Below are positions 8,527 to 19,704 of a stretch of 44,345 nucleotides of DNA, one piece after another. Below the pieces are notes generated by a model. It did no database searches. It was not told the DNA's origin and worked only from the letters and a program-made list of their open reading frames with translations. The DNA lies in NCBI RefSeq assembly GCF_900112255.1, contig NZ_FOLE01000014.1:1-44345 (forward strand), given 5' to 3'. Each line of letters opens with the position of its first letter. Position 1 is the first letter of the stretch. A program made the translations under genes and the position numbers. Source of the DNA: Flexibacter flexilis DSM 6793. GTDB lineage: Bacteria; Bacteroidota; Bacteroidia; Cytophagales; Flexibacteraceae.

Positions 8527-9417
8527 TTATGAATGAATACGGTGATGTAGCTTATTAACAGCCTCTTGCATGGAGCATATTCCATCGAGTAGGCCAATGT
8601 TTACGGCCTCTTGCGCCATGTACATGGCCCCATTAACGGGGGCTTCTGTTTTCAAATCAATGGCCAGATTGGGGCGGTTGGTTATGACGGCATTGCGGAA
8701 AACTTCGTTAATGGGGTCAAGCATATTCTTGCGAATCGGTCCATAATTCCCTGCTTTGGCCTCTATCACATCTTTGTTTTTTTCCGCGCTGGCCGTGGCT
8801 GTTACATAGTGTTCTTTCACGCCCATTTTTTCAAGCATACTGCTCATGTCATTGACTGCGATGGCTGTGCCAATACTTCCAACCATGGAGCTTTCCGAGT
8901 AAGCGTATATTTCATCACAGGCGGAAAGCAACCAATAACCTGCACTGGCGGCCAAGTCTTCTACCATGCCAAGGGTGGGTTTGCCATAGTCTTGGGAAAT
9001 AGATTTGATAGCATTGGCAAATACTTCTGTGCCTGCTACGCTGCCTCCTCCCGTGTCAAATACAAACATAACAGCGGCAATATTGGGGTGTGCGGCTGCG
9101 GCAAGTGATTGGCTCATAAGTTCTTTAGTGCCTGCACTAAAACAGCTTGATTCCTTCATCAAAGGGCCTCGCACCTCCACCACTGCGATAGATTGGGCGG
9201 GAGCTTGCTCCAACGTATAGCCACTAAATCCTGTGGAGGGGTCGCCATTGATGGCATAAGTTGCCAATGTGGGAGTTTCCATGTTGCCCGCCATTGCCTG
9301 CGCCTGTGGGTCAAATAGCATTTTCATTGCTAAAGGCAATAAAGTAGCGGCTATGTTATCTTCCATTAAAAAATTACTGGAGAGGGCGCGAATAGCGGCA
9401 ATGGCTTGGGCATTCAT
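8527..9417 (-). CDS. S49 family (SppA-like) prohead protease
   Basis: Encodes 296 residues, the usual size for phage S49 peptidases that mature the capsid. Residues 112-135 hold the FDTGGGSVAGTE turn. The nucleophile is Ser158 in AASAGYW (156-162), followed by the SMVGSIGTAI strand. The general-base lysine is probably Lys213 or Lys215 in ASAEKNKD. There is no signal peptide, which fits a prohead rather than a membrane enzyme. The scaffold-like gene and capsid gene follow downstream. Function is well supported by both motifs and order. Confidence 0.88.
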   Translation of the reverse strand: MNAQAIAAIRALSSNFLMEDNIAATLLPLAMKMLFDPQAQAMAGNMETPTLATYAINGDPSTGFSGYTLEQAPAQSIAVVEVRGPLMKESSCFSAGTKELMSQSLAAAAHPNIAAVMFVFDTGGGSVAGTEVFANAIKSISQDYGKPTLGMVEDLAASAGYWLLSACDEIYAYSESSMVGSIGTAIAVNDMSSMLEKMGVKEHYVTATASAEKNKDVIEAKAGNYGPIRKNMLDPINEVFRNAVITNRPNLAIDLKTEAPVNGAMYMAQEAVNIGLLDGICSMQEAVNKLHHRIHS

Positions 9418-14325: not shown

Positions 14326-14761
14326 AAGCAAGCGTGTCGAAGTTTATCACTTTGGTAGGGTTGGAGAGCTTCCAGTCTGCGTATTGCTCTTTGATAGAGG
14401 CTATCAGCAAGGCCAAAAATTCAATCTCGGCATTGGCTTGCTCTTGTGCTTGGACGTCTAAGTGAATCGTATTGACCCAATCAACTAATTCTTTTTCCCT
14501 CTGATTATTAAGCATTTTGATGAATGCCATCAAACTCTCATAGCCAAAACGTATAGTTCTTGTATCGTACAAAAAGAATAGCTTATTGTAGTTCGCATTC
14601 CAGAATCTGTACACCGTCCAGAAATTGGCATCGTATTCCTTTTTGGAGTTGTCTGTATAAGGGTTAATAAACAGGTTGTACAGAAATTCCCTGATGTATT
14701 TGGCCTCGCCCGAATTGAACTTAATCGGAATGGCGGGCATTTTGCGTGCTATTTCTACCAT
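14312..14761 (-). CDS. Phage early protein, unknown
   Basis: Encodes 149 residues, helical. It has aromatic-rich stretches (FWTVYRFWNANYNKLFFLY) around residues 45-65 and a negatively charged middle. No recognised motif. It overlaps the downstream HTH gene by 14 bases and the upstream gene by 7, so these three are one translationally coupled operon of early functions. Confidence 0.55.
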   Translation of the reverse strand: MVEIARKMPAIPIKFNSGEAKYIREFLYNLFINPYTDNSKKEYDANFWTVYRFWNANYNKLFFLYDTRTIRFGYESLMAFIKMLNNQREKELVDWVNTIHLDVQAQEQANAEIEFLALLIASIKEQYADWKLSNPTKVINFDTLAYDNA

Positions 14762-15186
14762 TGCGTTTCCTCCATTTCTTTGCGGCGCATTTCTTCGTAT
14801 CGCAACTGGCCTAATTGTTCTTGATATTTTTCGTAGGTAAGTACGCCATCAGGTAGCTTGCTCATTCCTTTGAATAGCATTAACTCAAGTTTCATGTTTT
14901 CGCCCGATATGCTACCTTTCTTAGTGGTATTCAGTATTTTATTTGCACAGATAGAGGCGCGAAATACACGGTCTTTGTTTTTTTGCAAATGCTTTATAAT
15001 CATTTCAAAGCCTTTGTACATCTCGAATTTAGTTACATCAAAAGCCAAAGACCTTTCAAATGAAGTATCAAAGGAATACATGGTATCAATGTGTTGATAA
15101 CCAGTATTTTTATTATTGTATGGTCGGTATATTGTTACTACGAATAATGATTCGGTAGCCGACGGTTGTTCTAATTTTTGTGCCAT
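14755..15186 (-). CDS. Phage early protein, unknown
   Basis: Encodes 143 residues. The N-terminal half is beta-rich (TESLFVVTIYRPYNN, then MYSFDTSFERSLAF). The C-terminal half is helical with a basic end (EQLGQLRYEEMRRKEME). The start codon is 20 bases from the -33 element of the opposite-strand promoter at 15206-15236, so expression of the two could interfere. No function recognised. Confidence 0.55.
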   Translation of the reverse strand: MAQKLEQPSATESLFVVTIYRPYNNKNTGYQHIDTMYSFDTSFERSLAFDVTKFEMYKGFEMIIKHLQKNKDRVFRASICANKILNTTKKGSISGENMKLELMLFKGMSKLPDGVLTYEKYQEQLGQLRYEEMRRKEMEETQW

Positions 15187-15205
15187 AAATTTTTTGTTGA
15201 AATGT

Positions 15206-15236
15206 TTTGAAAATCAACCGAGACACGCTACATTTG
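15206..15236 (+). promoter_or_regulatory. Consensus Bacteroidota promoter on the + strand
   Basis: TTTG (15206-15209), exactly 19 bases, then TACATTTG (15229-15236), a perfect fit to TTTG-N19-TAnnTTTG. It points rightward against the leftward early operon. The only + strand feature after it is a terminator ending at 15322. Confidence 0.65.
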
Positions 15237-15242
15237 TGATGT

Positions 15243-15322
15243 AGTTACACGGTCTTACGGTTTGACCCCCTACAGCGAAGTGAAAGATTTGAAGCTCATA
15301 GCCCCAAGCTATGGGCATTTTT
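15243..15322 (+). ncRNA. Predicted small RNA (about 80 nt) in the early operon gap
   Basis: A start about seven bases after the promoter at 15206-15236 and a terminator (stem GCTCATAGC 15294-15302 with GCTATGGGC 15308-15316, then ATTTTT) define a transcript of about 80 nt. It fills the gap between two minus-strand genes and the terminator stops four bases before the stop codon of the gene at 15326. No ORF of note is inside. The transcript runs opposite to the early genes and could regulate them, by antisense read-through or by binding a target elsewhere. Confidence 0.55.
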
Positions 15323-15325
15323 CGT

Positions 15326-16177
15326 TTACAGGCCGCCCAGCCGCGCCGCGCCCCCCTGTGAAATTTTAAAATTGCCCCAATCTTTCAATTTGCCGAAAAA
15401 AACCGATTTTAAAATTTGGCTTTTAGTATTGTTGTTTTGTGCACAAGCCGAACTTATCCACAAATCCACGTCATTATAACAATATGTTTTAGAATTAAAA
15501 CATATTTTGAATCTTAAAATTGTGGCGATTTTTTCGCCAAGTTCCTTTTGTAAAATATTGAAAATCAACATTTTGTAAAATAGTGTTCTAAGCGAATTTT
15601 CGGGGTTTTGAGGGCTGTCTGGAGCTACTTGCGGAGCTTGTGGACATTCGTTGTTGATAACTGGAGCAGGGCTTGAATTGCCACCAGAAGGAGTGTTATT
15701 GGGTGTACTGGCTGCGAACTCTTCAACGGCCTCCGTTACCTCTAAAAGCTCCTGAAAGGCATTCAGGTTAATGTTCCAAAGCGTATTGAAGTGCTGAAAC
15801 TTCTTTCCAAATTGGGGCTTGTCTGGGTCAGGGGTTGGGTTTTCGGCAATGCTGATAAAACCAAGTTCAATCATGCGTCTGCGATAGGCTTGCGCGGCGT
15901 GTCGTTTGCTGCGTGCGAACTTGGCCAAGAGCGCAGAAGATAACTCTATCGGGTCTCCATAGGCCACTTTCCCTGCATTAACCAACTGAAAATAAGTTTT
16001 GATAACGGCTTTAATGGTGTGATGGAAATTAAGCCTAATTTTCTGTTTGAGTTCCTTACAACGCTGGTTAAACAGGTCGATGGATTCAAAAACATTGCGG
16101 TACGCTGTTTTAATTTGGTCAGGCGAAATGACGTACTTGGGTTGTGGAATGGTGGGGGTTTGCTTTAAACTACTCAT
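15326..16177 (-). CDS. Phage DNA-binding / replication-like protein
   Basis: Encodes 283 residues. Residues about 1-115 look like a winged-helix domain (IELSSALLAKFARSKRHAAQ, then YRRRMIELGFISIA), similar in shape to the N-terminal halves of phage replication initiators. A proline/asparagine-rich linker (about 155-190) joins a C-terminal region that is helical then rather low in recognised features. In the leftward order it precedes the coupled early genes. Function as replication initiator is a guess. The C-terminal codons are GC-rich (QGGAARLGGL), unlike the rest. Confidence 0.5.
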   Translation of the reverse strand: MSSLKQTPTIPQPKYVISPDQIKTAYRNVFESIDLFNQRCKELKQKIRLNFHHTIKAVIKTYFQLVNAGKVAYGDPIELSSALLAKFARSKRHAAQAYRRRMIELGFISIAENPTPDPDKPQFGKKFQHFNTLWNINLNAFQELLEVTEAVEEFAASTPNNTPSGGNSSPAPVINNECPQAPQVAPDSPQNPENSLRTLFYKMLIFNILQKELGEKIATILRFKICFNSKTYCYNDVDLWISSACAQNNNTKSQILKSVFFGKLKDWGNFKISQGGAARLGGL

Positions 16178-16219
16178 ATTATAACAAATAATAATTTATA
16201 ACATTCAATAAATATTTAG

Positions 16220-16244
16220 AAAACGGGGCAACAGATTACCCCGT
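16220..16244 (-). terminator. Weak terminator after the 76-residue early gene
   Basis: ACGGGG (16223-16228)/CCCCGT (16239-16244) followed leftward by TTTTCT. It lies between the gene ending at 16265 and the start at 16177. Confidence 0.5.
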
Positions 16245-16264
16245 CATCGGGAGGGCGAAGGCTA

Positions 16265-16495
16265 TTATCCTACCTTCATATTTCTAAGGTCGGCCAATGC
16301 TTCTTTGGCCTGCCGCATAATCGCGGCTAAGGAATTTTGTTTTTCCTTGTATGCCATCAACTCATCTAATTGAGCCTGAAATGGTCTCAACTCTTCGCGG
16401 AACTTGGCGCACAAGCTATCGTTATAGCTGTGCTTTTTAATCATCTCTTGCAAAAACGCGACTTTCTCGCGCAGATACAGTTCGTCGTTGCTCAT
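16265..16495 (-). CDS. Small coiled-coil early protein
   Basis: Encodes 76 residues from the ATG at 16495 (MSNDELYLREKVAFLQEMIKK). An ATG directly before it (16498) is equally possible, and a longer frame upstream is shadow sequence. Nearly all of it is an amphipathic helix with heptads, ending ALADLRNMKVG. It could oligomerise or bind another early protein. No family is recognised. Confidence 0.55.
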   Translation of the reverse strand: MSNDELYLREKVAFLQEMIKKHSYNDSLCAKFREELRPFQAQLDELMAYKEKQNSLAAIMRQAKEALADLRNMKVG

Positions 16496-16587
16496 CATAT
16501 GCACCAGATGTTTTGCACAAAGTGAACGGGTCGCCCTGTGCGGCCGAAATGCTTTTTTACTTCTTCTTTTGTTGCCTTGTCCATATT

Positions 16588-16618
16588 TTTGGAACACACA
16601 AAAAGTTGATTATATTTG
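16588..16618 (+). promoter_or_regulatory. Consensus Bacteroidota promoter on the + strand
   Basis: TTTG (16588-16591), exactly 19 bases, then TATATTTG (16611-16618), a perfect match to the consensus. It faces right, against all nearby phage genes. A terminator at 16651-16687 follows almost at once. Confidence 0.7.
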
Positions 16619-16624
16619 TGTCGC

Positions 16625-16687
16625 ATTATCATAAAACATTAAAGTTTTTTAGCCCTGCACACGCTCCAACGTTGCAGGGCTTTTTTT
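16625..16687 (+). ncRNA. Predicted small RNA (about 63 nt) with strong terminator
   Basis: Promoter at 16588-16618, start near 16625, and a terminator with stem AGCCCTGCA (16651-16659)/TGCAGGGCT (16673-16681) and T run to 16687. The unstructured 5' part is about 26 nt (TATCATAAAACATTAAAG-like), the shape of many trans-acting small RNAs: short seed region plus terminator hairpin. Read on the other strand the hairpin is followed by A, not T, so it is directional. Nothing else on this strand needs this terminator. Inferred, not shown. Confidence 0.6.
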
Positions 16688-16689
16688 GT

Positions 16690-16980
16690 GAATAATTAAA
16701 CCATTGGCCGCTGAAAATCAGCATAAAGAACTTTTTACGATTTGGCCAAAATCGCGGTGGCAAAACACGGCGCAAACCTGCCCCGTGCTTTTAAACAACT
16801 AACGGTAAACCATTTAAACATCATTCTACCTACTCTCAAAGAACTGATTGCCACACGTTTGCGGCCTTGTAAATCGTGGTAGCAGTACCACCACAATTTG
16901 ATTAGCGAATAAACATTTAACTTAAATCAATTCTTCAGCGCGGAAACAGCAGATTACAGTAAGTTGTGTTACGCTGAATT
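16690..16980. other. Non-coding stretch full of hairpins
   Basis: No gene. Visible stems: GCTGA-aaa-TCAGC near 16710, CGATTT-ggcca-AAATCG near 16738, CACGG/CCGTG followed by TTTT near 16765-16793, GTGGTA-gcag-TACCAC at about 16876-16891, and TTCAGCG/CGCTGAA (about 16933-16976). With the tRNA-like elements next to it, this makes about 500 bases of probable structured RNA or a replication/packaging site. Confidence 0.5.
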
Positions 16981-16981
16981 G

Positions 16982-17055
16982 CAACCGTAGCAGGAATCGA
17001 ACCTGCATCTTACATTGCTGTACGCTCTAAGCCATACTTTTTAAGCTATACGGTT
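16982..17055 (-). tRNA. tRNA-like element, probably degenerate
   Basis: On the minus strand there is a perfect seven-base acceptor stem (AACCGTA 17055-17049 with TACGGTT 16989-16983) and a perfect T arm (GCAGG-TTCGATT-CCTGC). A D-stem GCTT/GAGC fits with an oversized loop. The anticodon arm is not normal: only TACA-GCAA-TGTA can pair, leaving a four-base loop and no readable anticodon. Total length is 74 nt as in a real tRNA. It may be a decaying phage tRNA or a tRNA mimic. No CCA is encoded. Confidence 0.5.
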
Positions 17056-17232
17056 TCCGTTGGTGGCACTACCGACCACCGTCTTCGGGTAATGGTAAAG
17101 AAAGTGCGGACTTTTACCGCTTGGTGCAGGCATACTTTTGAACGTTAGCGTCTTAGACCTCTCTGTTGGGTATGTTGTTCCTGCCATGCAGTTCCGTTCA
17201 AAACATTAATTGTCCCTCATGGGCTTTCTTTG
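17056..17232. other. Structured spacer between the two tRNA elements
   Basis: Holds GGTGG-cactaccga-CCACC near 17061, GGTAAAG/CTTTTACC (about 17093-17119), and a nine-base perfect inverted repeat TTTTGAACG (17136-17144)/CGTTCAAAA (17195-17203) that encloses a CTGC-cat-GCAG hairpin. The last looks like a long closed RNA fold of 68 nt, but it has no T-arm signature, so it is not a tRNA. No ORF. Confidence 0.45.
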
Positions 17233-17305
17233 TTGCATGGGCGGGACTCGAACCCGCGACCTTTGGGTTATGAGCCCAACGAGCTGCCAACTGCTCTACC
17301 ACGCT
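17233..17305 (-). tRNA. Phage tRNA with CAT anticodon, initiator type
   Basis: A full cloverleaf of 73 nt on the minus strand: acceptor AGCGTGG/CCATGCA, D arm GAGC-AGTTGGCA-GCTC, anticodon arm TTGGG-CTCATAA-CCCAA, variable loop AGGTC and T arm GCGGG-TTCGAGT-CCCGC. Three features mark bacterial initiator tRNAs: an unpaired 1:72 position (A:A here), an A11:U24 pair and three consecutive G:C pairs next to the anticodon loop. CCA is not encoded. It starts four bases after the stop codon of the gene at 17310-17519, so it is probably cut from the leftward early transcript. It could also serve as a poor elongator. Confidence 0.88.
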
Positions 17306-17309
17306 TGAA

Positions 17310-17519
17310 TTATTTTTTTATATTCTCGTACAGGTGAATATTATCTTCTATATAGTTTGCTTCAACAACAACAAACTCCGACCTGCCATTTAGTTTTTGG
17401 CGAAATGACGCAGATGTAACATATCCAAACTCTTTATTAAACGCTTTTATAAATAACTCTTTGCCTTTAGGCGAAAGCGTTTGATACTTCGATTTTATAT
17501 CTGTTAAAGTTAATGGCAT
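17310..17519 (-). CDS. First leftward early gene, unknown small protein
   Basis: Encodes 69 residues (MPLTLTDIKSKYQTLSPKGK). It has an N-terminal helical region with TLSPKGKELFIKAF and a middle ASFRQKLNGR segment that could be a degenerate HTH. It is divergent from the repressor gene across a 182-base region with operator-like palindromes, which is where Cro, Ner or early activators usually lie. A tRNA follows at once. A Cro/Ner-like regulatory role is likely from position only. Confidence 0.6.
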   Translation of the reverse strand: MPLTLTDIKSKYQTLSPKGKELFIKAFNKEFGYVTSASFRQKLNGRSEFVVVEANYIEDNIHLYENIKK

Positions 17520-17585
17520 AACACACTTTTTGTTTAATGTAAAACACTCAGAATAAATGTATTTTTTCGATTTGGCACTGTATTT

Positions 17586-17620
17586 GTTACTAAATAACTT
17601 ATATTTGCGTAACGGTTACG
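17586..17620. promoter_or_regulatory. Operator-like palindromes and -7 element of the lysogeny switch
   Basis: GTTA-ctaaa-TAAC (17586-17598) and CGTAAC-g-GTTACG (17608-17620) share the GTTAC half-site. Between them is TATATTTG (17600-17607), a perfect -7 element facing the repressor gene, though no TTTG lies at the best spacing (copies at 17571 and 17583 are 25 and 13 bases away). A repressor bound here would cover the predicted start of its own transcript. A further TTTGTA/TACAAA pair lies near 17623-17646. Confidence 0.6.
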
Positions 17621-17701
17621 TGTTTGTATCGTTTTCGTTTACAAAGATTACAGTATTACTTATAAAAAACAAGTTTTTACATTAAACTTTTTACATAAAT
17701 T

Positions 17702-18175
17702 ATGGGAAAAGCTAATATTTCACATAGAATCAGTGAGTTAAGGGCAAAAAAGAGGGCAAAACAAAAAGATGTTGCCGCTTATTTAGGTGTCTCTACCTCC
17801 GCAATATCAGAATATGAATCTGGTCGTGCAAACCCTACACTGGAAAAACTTATCCTGTTAAGCCAATATTTTGGTGTAAGTCTTGATTATTTGCAGGGAG
17901 ACAATCAAGAAATCACAGAGATTACAGAAGTTACAGAAAAAATATATGAATCTCCCAAAAATCAATTATTGGAGGAGTTGAGGGCTATAAATGAAAAGCT
18001 AACCGAGCAGGCTCAGATATTCATGCAGGAAATAACCTTCTTACGTAAAGCATTAGAAGCAAAAGACCATCAAATTGAGTCTAAGGACAAGCAGATAGAG
18101 CAGCTCATGGGAAAGTATTCGGTAAGTAAAGTGCCTCATGGTTTGCAATTTATTTTGGTGAGAAATAACTCATAA
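17702..18175 (+). CDS. XRE-family (CI-like) prophage repressor
   Basis: Encodes 157 residues. Residues 6-65 form a complete XRE helix-turn-helix (ISELRAKKRAKQKDVAAYLG, then STSAISEYESGRANP, then LDYLQGD). The rest is a long coiled coil (about 85-135) for dimer formation, with a short end. There is no peptidase domain, so it is not a LexA-type self-cleaving repressor. It is the only rightward gene of the prophage and is divergent from the leftward early genes, as expected for a lysogeny master repressor binding the palindromes at 17586-17620. It ends about 160 bases from a host gene and so marks the prophage side of the boundary. Confidence 0.85.
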   Translation: MGKANISHRISELRAKKRAKQKDVAAYLGVSTSAISEYESGRANPTLEKLILLSQYFGVSLDYLQGDNQEITEITEVTEKIYESPKNQLLEELRAINEKLTEQAQIFMQEITFLRKALEAKDHQIESKDKQIEQLMGKYSVSKVPHGLQFILVRNNS

Positions 18176-18333
18176 AAAAATTTGCTTGCTATCTTTACTT
18201 GCTAAGTATTAGCTATACGCAATACAGAGGCTTGAATATCAACCAATTGCAAATAATATTTGTTTGTGGCCTGAAAACAAAGACATTGTTTTTCGGTAAG
18301 GACAATTTTGTTTGCCTCTTAACAAAGATAAAA
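18176..18333. other. Probable prophage-host junction
   Basis: Between the phage repressor and a host metabolic gene there is no ORF. A CTTGCTA direct repeat occurs twice close to 18183-18208. The other prophage end is outside the window, so the attachment core cannot be fixed. Confidence 0.35.
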
Positions 18334-19704
18334 ATGTATTACAATTCAATCATCGAAACGATTGGCAATACGCCATTAGTCAAACTCAACAAAGTAACAG
18401 ACGGCATTAAAGGCACGGTGCTTGCCAAAGTAGAATATTTCAACCCTGGTAACTCGGTAAAAGACCGTATGGCCATCAAAATGATTGAAGATGCCGAAAA
18501 AGCAGGCATTCTCAGCAAAGGTGGTACGATTATCGAAGGTACTTCGGGCAATACGGGCATGGGCTTGGCCTTAGCGGCAACTGCCAAAGGCTACAAATGT
18601 ATTTTCACGATGGCCGACAAGCAGTCCAAAGAGAAAATGGACATTTTGCGTGCCGTAGGTGCTGAAGTTGTGGTTTGCCCAACCAACGTTACCCCCGACG
18701 ACCCTCGCTCTTACTATTCGGTAGCGCGCAAACTCAACGCCGAAATCCCTAATTCTTTTTACCCCAACCAATACGATAATCTTTCGAACACGGCGGCGCA
18801 TTACGAAACCACTGGCCCAGAAATTTGGGAACAAACCGAAGGTAAAATCACGCATTACGCTTGCGGCGTGGGTACGGGTGGCACCATGTGCGGAACAGCC
18901 AAATTTTTGAAAGAACAAAACCCGAACGTCAAAACCGTAGGCATTGACACTTACGGTTCGGTGTTTAAGAAATATAAAGAAACTGGCGTTTTTGACGAAA
19001 ACGAAATTTATCCGTATCTGACTGAAGGCATTGGCGAAGACATTTTGCCTAAAAACGTGGACTTTAGTTTGATAGATGAGTTCGTAAAAGTAACAGACAA
19101 GGATGCAGCTCTGATGGCGCGTCGTTTGTCGAAAGAAGAAGGCTTGTTTGTGGGTTGGTCGTGTGGTTCTGCCGTGCATGGCGCGTTGGAGTATGCTCGC
19201 AAAAACCTCAAAGAAGGCGATGTGATGGTTATTATTCTTCCAGACCACGGCACACGCTATTTGGGCAAAATCTACAATGATTCTTGGATGAAAGACCACG
19301 GCTTTGTGGAAACACGCCAATACGCAACGGCTCGCGACATCGTGGCGGCGCGTAACGGTTCGGCTAGCTTGGTAACAGTGGACAAAAATGCAACGGTTGC
19401 TTCTGTGATTCAGAAACTTACGCAAGAAGGCATTTCGCAAATCCCTGTAACCGATGGCGAAAATTTCGTGGGTAGCCTTTCGGACAGCAAAGTATTGAGC
19501 CGCCTAATCGAAAACCCAAGTCTTAAAACCAGTTCTGTAAGCGAGCTAATGGACAAACCCTTTACGTTCGTGGGCTTGGATAACACCATCGACGTGTTGT
19601 CGTCGTTGATTACGCGCGAAAACCCTGCCCTATTGGTGCGCGACGAAAACAACCAAGTGCAAATCATTACGCAAGCCGACTTGTTGGCGACCATTGCCAA
19701 ATAA
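18334..19704 (+). CDS. Cystathionine beta-synthase-type PLP enzyme with CBS pair
   Basis: Encodes 456 residues from the ATG at 18334; the frame is open further upstream but that part is not protein-like. Residues 1-330 are the fold-type II PLP domain: Lys43 in NPGNSVKDRMA is the Schiff-base lysine, and GTSGNTGMG (about 74-82) binds the cofactor phosphate. Residues about 340-456 hold two CBS motifs, which bind adenosyl ligands. This makes cystathionine beta-synthase (serine plus homocysteine, transsulfuration) more likely than plain cysteine synthase. A strong terminator follows at 19728. Single-gene unit. The reaction is inferred by domain make-up; the enzyme may also use O-acetylserine. Confidence 0.85.
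   Translation: MYYNSIIETIGNTPLVKLNKVTDGIKGTVLAKVEYFNPGNSVKDRMAIKMIEDAEKAGILSKGGTIIEGTSGNTGMGLALAATAKGYKCIFTMADKQSKEKMDILRAVGAEVVVCPTNVTPDDPRSYYSVARKLNAEIPNSFYPNQYDNLSNTAAHYETTGPEIWEQTEGKITHYACGVGTGGTMCGTAKFLKEQNPNVKTVGIDTYGSVFKKYKETGVFDENEIYPYLTEGIGEDILPKNVDFSLIDEFVKVTDKDAALMARRLSKEEGLFVGWSCGSAVHGALEYARKNLKEGDVMVIILPDHGTRYLGKIYNDSWMKDHGFVETRQYATARDIVAARNGSASLVTVDKNATVASVIQKLTQEGISQIPVTDGENFVGSLSDSKVLSRLIENPSLKTSSVSELMDKPFTFVGLDNTIDVLSSLITRENPALLVRDENNQVQIITQADLLATIAK

Follow-up and report, generated by a model that had tools for sequence, protein, structure and literature searches.

The genome is 4.25 Mb long and assembled in 48 contigs; contig C14 is the window, the whole 44,345-nucleotide stretch analyzed. 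Part of a prophage occupies it from position 1 to about 18.19 kb. The prophage codes for a terminase large subunit (1454-2971) and a head maturation protease (8527-9417), both read leftward, among other genes of that direction. At its right end a repressor-type HTH protein is encoded on the plus strand (17702-18175; HTH_3, 3.8e-16; phrog_8, 3e-19), and host genes adjoin that end, among them one for a CBS-domain enzyme (18199-19704). Our subject is a short plus-strand unit at 16588-16687, the 16588 unit. The initial annotation placed it amid genes of the minus strand only. That applies to the likely prophage genes to its left and the tRNA genes to its right, but not to the repressor gene on the plus strand.

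The same genome carries a second prophage, on contig C8. The two prophages have common patches of 69-99% identity, including a patch of 908 bases around the 16588 unit with 91% identity, and their repressors are 40% identical over 116 amino acids. The contig opens (positions 1-240 of the window) inside sequence that matches the extreme end of contig C8 at 91% identity. The assembly breaks in both prophages at one common stretch.

The candidate regulated gene is a leftward short ORF of 29 amino acids (16495-16584, minus strand; MDKATKEEVKK...), whose stop overlaps the start of the next leftward ORF (16265-16498, minus strand; MSNDELYLREK...; no family match). The short ORF is open in both prophages, and its coding status is uncertain as four of the five changed codons are non-synonymous. 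Its product is not hydrophobic by eye, and a type I toxin-antitoxin system was rejected. The frame of GTG 16597 provides an alternative start for ORF 16265-16498. Further along, an early gene with no recognized function (15326-16177, minus strand) sits between the 16588 unit and a second one, the 15206 unit. This gene had two weak partial matches in the genome contigs, which were set aside, and no relative in the viral contigs.

Upstream of the candidate target is a conserved, mostly non-coding early leader (16700-17094, minus strand). Against shuffles, the fold of its 16700-16985 part has a z-score of -3.22 on the minus strand and -1.89 on the plus strand, and this part may be a separate structured RNA. 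A search of 15150-17720 for leftward promoters gave none within one mismatch, a weak point in the case for transcription of the candidate target. The leader also holds a tRNA-like element (16982-17055, minus strand) with a copy in the second prophage (L002, 1159-1234). They score 43.0 and 47.2 bits, respectively, above the Rfam tRNA threshold, with no ARAGORN call. By eye, the acceptor, D and T arms are intact and the "anticodon" arm is stunted, with three pairs in the window, four in the second prophage and a 6-base loop. The differences between the two copies in this arm keep the pairing. A prophage-borne tRNA-Met gene with a CAT anticodon (17232-17305, minus strand) is encoded in the early region as well.

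A promoter and a terminator in close succession

The 16588 unit opens with a Bacteroidota-type promoter, TTTG-N19-TATATTTG (16588-16618, plus strand), which begins four bases upstream of the start codon (ATG 16584) of the leftward short ORF. TTTG is at 16588-16591 and, after a spacer of 19 bases, TATATTTG is at 16611-16618. Tested against the sigma-ABfr consensus taken from PMC7366714 (TTTG near -33, TAnnTTTG near -7), the unit is an exact match with a spacer of 19. An intrinsic terminator follows (16651-16687, plus strand). In it AGCCCTGCA (16651-16659) pairs with TGCAGGGCT (16673-16681) to give a nine-pair stem with a 13-base loop region, and seven T are at 16681-16687. The T run lies 3' of the hairpin on the plus strand only. 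Read directly, the sequence bears out the initial annotation: the promoter is there, and a nine-pair terminator, with seven T in its T run, ends some 63 nt downstream of where transcription should begin. The hairpin was not among the calls of a separate terminator scan with a loop limit of 8. To the left of the unit there is no likely rightward gene needing a rightward terminator.

Judged from the promoter, an antisense RNA is predicted to start at 16625 and to span about 63 nt (16625-16687, plus strand). This RNA remains a prediction, though a well-supported one. It lies in the leader and overlaps no certain coding sequence. Its fold has a predicted energy of -20.2 kcal/mol (z-score -5.92, with none of 200 shuffles as stable), owed mostly to the terminator. 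We rejected a small peptide as its product: there is no ATG, and no usual start with an open frame in any of the three frames. At the gathering score, Rfam matched only tRNAs in the whole window, and the sub-threshold matches at the 16588 unit are at chance level.

To gauge how rare this arrangement is, we defined a strict unit as TTTG-N18-20-TANNTTTG followed by a terminator-like hairpin 20-120 nt past the start. The 18.2-kb prophage has two (15206-15325 and 16588-16687). Among 4000 dinucleotide shuffles of the prophage, 3898 had no unit, 102 had one and none had two. The second prophage has one strict unit, the counterpart of the 16588 unit. Real DNA is a stricter control than the shuffles. 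Strict units were absent from 40 stretches of other genomes that adjoin terminase relatives (793 kb, which may miss early regions), from 40 control stretches (800 kb, which may include prophages), and from 48 kb of host DNA from the two contigs. Set against the two units of the prophage, their absence from 1.59 Mb of comparison DNA is a contrast somewhat inflated by scan thresholds chosen after the 16588 unit was known. The terminase neighborhoods also speak against such units being a general habit of these phages. With a relaxed promoter the comparison sets showed no surplus of units over shuffled sequence (counts of 4 against 3.5 and of 3 against 5.0). When the stem was used as a pattern on 40 viral stretches, 45 terminators matched, none with a strict promoter within 150 bases upstream and eight with only a -7-like box upstream. 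The arrangement is real and unlikely.

Conservation and the other units

Between the two prophages, 96 of the 100 positions of the 16588 unit are identical. In the promoter (16588-16618) 29 of 31 positions are the same, with both changes in the spacer and the boxes kept. The stem-loop region is identical at 32 of 33 positions with the stem unchanged, and the predicted RNA (16625-16687) at 62 of 63, the one difference being in the loop. Because the whole segment is 91% identical over 908 bases, boxes and a stem without change carry no significance on their own.

The initial annotation had suggested looking for the unit in related prophages. The second prophage does keep the boxes and stem, but across the collections searched nothing comparable came from any other genome. 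Among 59 relatives, DNA of the 16588 unit was found in its own genome, and five others had matches of just 22-35 bases and were rejected as carriers of a homologue. The 908-base query matched only its own genome among 390 genomes of the order, and the leader matched none of the phage and plasmid records. A 3.7-kb query matched 63 phage records, and the 20 matches listed are all on the tRNA-Met gene. An exact 22-base leader pattern was absent from the viral contigs. One of these contigs (L046), a candidate third prophage, proved to be simply the second prophage, with 100% identity over 11,539 bases. Another (L012) had a weak protein match, 49% over 35 residues, and no DNA match.

The promoter of the 15206 unit, TTTG-N19-TACATTTG (15206-15236, plus strand), lies upstream of the leftward ORF 14755-15186, at a distance of 20 bases from its start codon. 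Its predicted antisense RNA of about 80 nt (15243-15325, plus strand) would end at the stop codon of the leftward gene 15326-16177. Both units have one geometry: each begins a short way upstream of a leftward ORF (ATG 16584 and ATG 15186) and crosses an untranslated gap. The 15206 unit has its counterpart in the same gap and strand of the second prophage, with a hairpin at a similar distance and a T run. Two compensatory pair changes there keep the nine pairs of the terminator stem. The gene before the unit (15326-16177) is 29% identical over part of its length between the prophages; for the gene on the other side the figure is 44% over 43 residues. With its flanking genes so diverged, conservation of the 15206 unit is more telling than that of the 16588 unit. 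The counterpart, TTTG-N19-GATGTTTG, has one mismatch in the -7 box, which counts against it as a promoter.

The initial annotation grouped the 16588 unit with units at 15206-15322 and 66-180. The 16588 and 15206 units belong together, but 66-180 does not fit: it has GATATTTG in place of TANNTTTG with a spacer of 20 bases, and the matching unit of the second prophage has no -7 box while keeping the terminator.

A candidate cis-antisense RNA and its alternatives

We consider it probable, though not strongly so, that the 16588 unit encodes a cis-antisense RNA acting on the early leader in the manner of OOP RNA, by a duplex, by polymerase collision or by both. A consensus promoter and a strong terminator 63 nt apart count in its support. 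The plus-strand unit stands opposite leftward genes in both prophages, consistent with the earlier prediction that it is directed against the early operon. As the early leader is by position the exact complement of the RNA, pairing in cis is the default. How the sequence is built, how rare it is and that the second prophage keeps it are shown here; transcription, a duplex and its outcome we infer as follows. The housekeeping-type promoter would make a non-coding RNA of about 63 nt, rightward toward the repressor. Starting shortly upstream of where translation of the leftward early gene begins, the RNA would end at its own terminator within the early leader. The leftward early message, once made, would contain its exact complement. 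A duplex of RNA and leader could then lead to cleavage, or block translation of the short ORF and the next gene. Alternatively or in addition, two opposing polymerases might collide. In the lysogen, early transcription that leaks would be damped, and the 15206 unit could act in the same way one gene further on.

It is also conceivable, if rather unlikely, that firing of the promoter matters and the RNA does not. Interference with the leftward transcript, by collision or promoter occlusion, would then be the function, and the terminator would merely stop the antisense polymerase from entering the tRNA genes and the repressor. The promoter does begin four bases from the leftward start codon, and in lambda a pO mutation raised pR transcription beyond pO, with the RNA judged an unlikely cause by the authors in the part of PMC3985674 that describes it. 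However, the same sequence facts suit an antisense RNA equally, and conservation extends equally to the RNA part (62 of 63 positions) and the promoter (29 of 31). Improbable too is the absence of any functional RNA, the promoter matching by chance and the hairpin serving the leftward message or the DNA. The whole segment is conserved, and the leader at 16700-16985 is itself conserved and structured (with the z-scores given above), as this account would have it. Yet only the plus strand has a T run behind the hairpin, and the joint pattern occurs twice, exceeding both shuffles and real comparison DNA.

Two further readings appear very unlikely to us. The initial annotation had taken the RNA for a trans-acting small RNA, in which case its targets would be other phage messages or host messages. 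A little-structured 5' part with a terminator at the 3' end suits that form. The best duplex of the 30-nt 5' part with 29 prophage gene starts, at -12.2 kcal/mol, was nevertheless equaled or bettered in 120 of 200 shuffles, which argues against the proposal, and a perfect target exists in cis by position. PRE-like antisense promoters exist in lambda. As the unit faces the repressor gene 1.0 kb downstream, it might analogously drive the repressor rightward as an establishment-type promoter, its terminator serving as an attenuator that stops most transcripts and is overridden under some condition to yield repressor mRNA. We give this analogue of PRE equally little credence: the terminator is strong, with seven T, and read-through would traverse two tRNA-like genes in antisense.

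Comparison with known antisense RNAs

Most known cases in which antisense RNA controls early phage genes come from enterobacterial phages. The 16588 RNA most likely belongs to a known kind, the cis-antisense RNAs, with an unrelated sequence. Closest in layout is the OOP/pO system of lambda and Stx phages, described in PMC12197685 as a short RNA with its own terminator, from a promoter facing the early operon; OOP RNA is 77 nt in a table there. The 16588 unit is likewise predicted to have its own promoter and terminator opposite the early operon. The OOP promoter adjoins the start of a replication gene, according to the relevant parts of PMC3985674 and PMC12197685, and the 16588 and 15206 promoters adjoin early-gene starts. 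Each is just upstream of the next early gene and reads toward the repressor (16588/16584; 15206/15186). OOP is antisense to cII, whereas no cII-type gene was recognized at 16625-16687 and the RNA there does not overlap the 3' part of one, nor any certain coding sequence, so that the likeness is one of layout. The sigma and terminator contexts differ also.

DonS, as presented in PMC7366714, is a divergent short antisense RNA at the start of its target with a TTTG / TAnnTTTG promoter, as at the 16588 unit. The DonS family of Bacteroides cis-antisense RNAs, however, is given there as 78-128 nt and opposite susC homologues in polysaccharide loci, while the 16588 RNA, at about 63 nt, belongs to a prophage and has phage ORFs as neighbors. 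The sar RNA of P22, another short antisense RNA (68/69 nt), limits an early phage gene (as summarized in PMC12197685). It targets the antirepressor gene ant, and no antirepressor was recognized in this prophage. STnc6030 of prophage BTP1 is also a prophage antisense RNA and excludes superinfecting phage with matching sequence, but in the account in PMC7067206 it is 786 nt and antisense to late genes, unlike an early-leader RNA of about 63 nt. Our literature search recognized no antisense RNAs in Bacteroidota prophages among the sources it covered, which is no proof of their absence.

STnc6030 offers, as far as PMC7067206 describes it, a precedent for an additional role. The predicted RNAs of the two prophages, and with them the target leaders, have 62 of 63 positions in common while the repressors are only 40% identical. 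They might thus form a repressor-independent immunity determinant, each silencing the early message of the other prophage and of an incoming matching phage, so that RNA would coordinate or police phages resident in one cell, a role that we think unlikely. If the transcript exists, a Bacteroidota-type prophage has the same layout by unrelated sequence, and the two prophages in one cell are a natural test of RNA action across different repressors.

The gene between the two units (15326-16177) contains TTATCCACA at 15454-15462, which we take to be DnaA-box-like, adjoining an AT-rich inverted repeat at 15481-15506. By analogy with lambda, this gene may contain a replication origin, with one of the two antisense units on either side.
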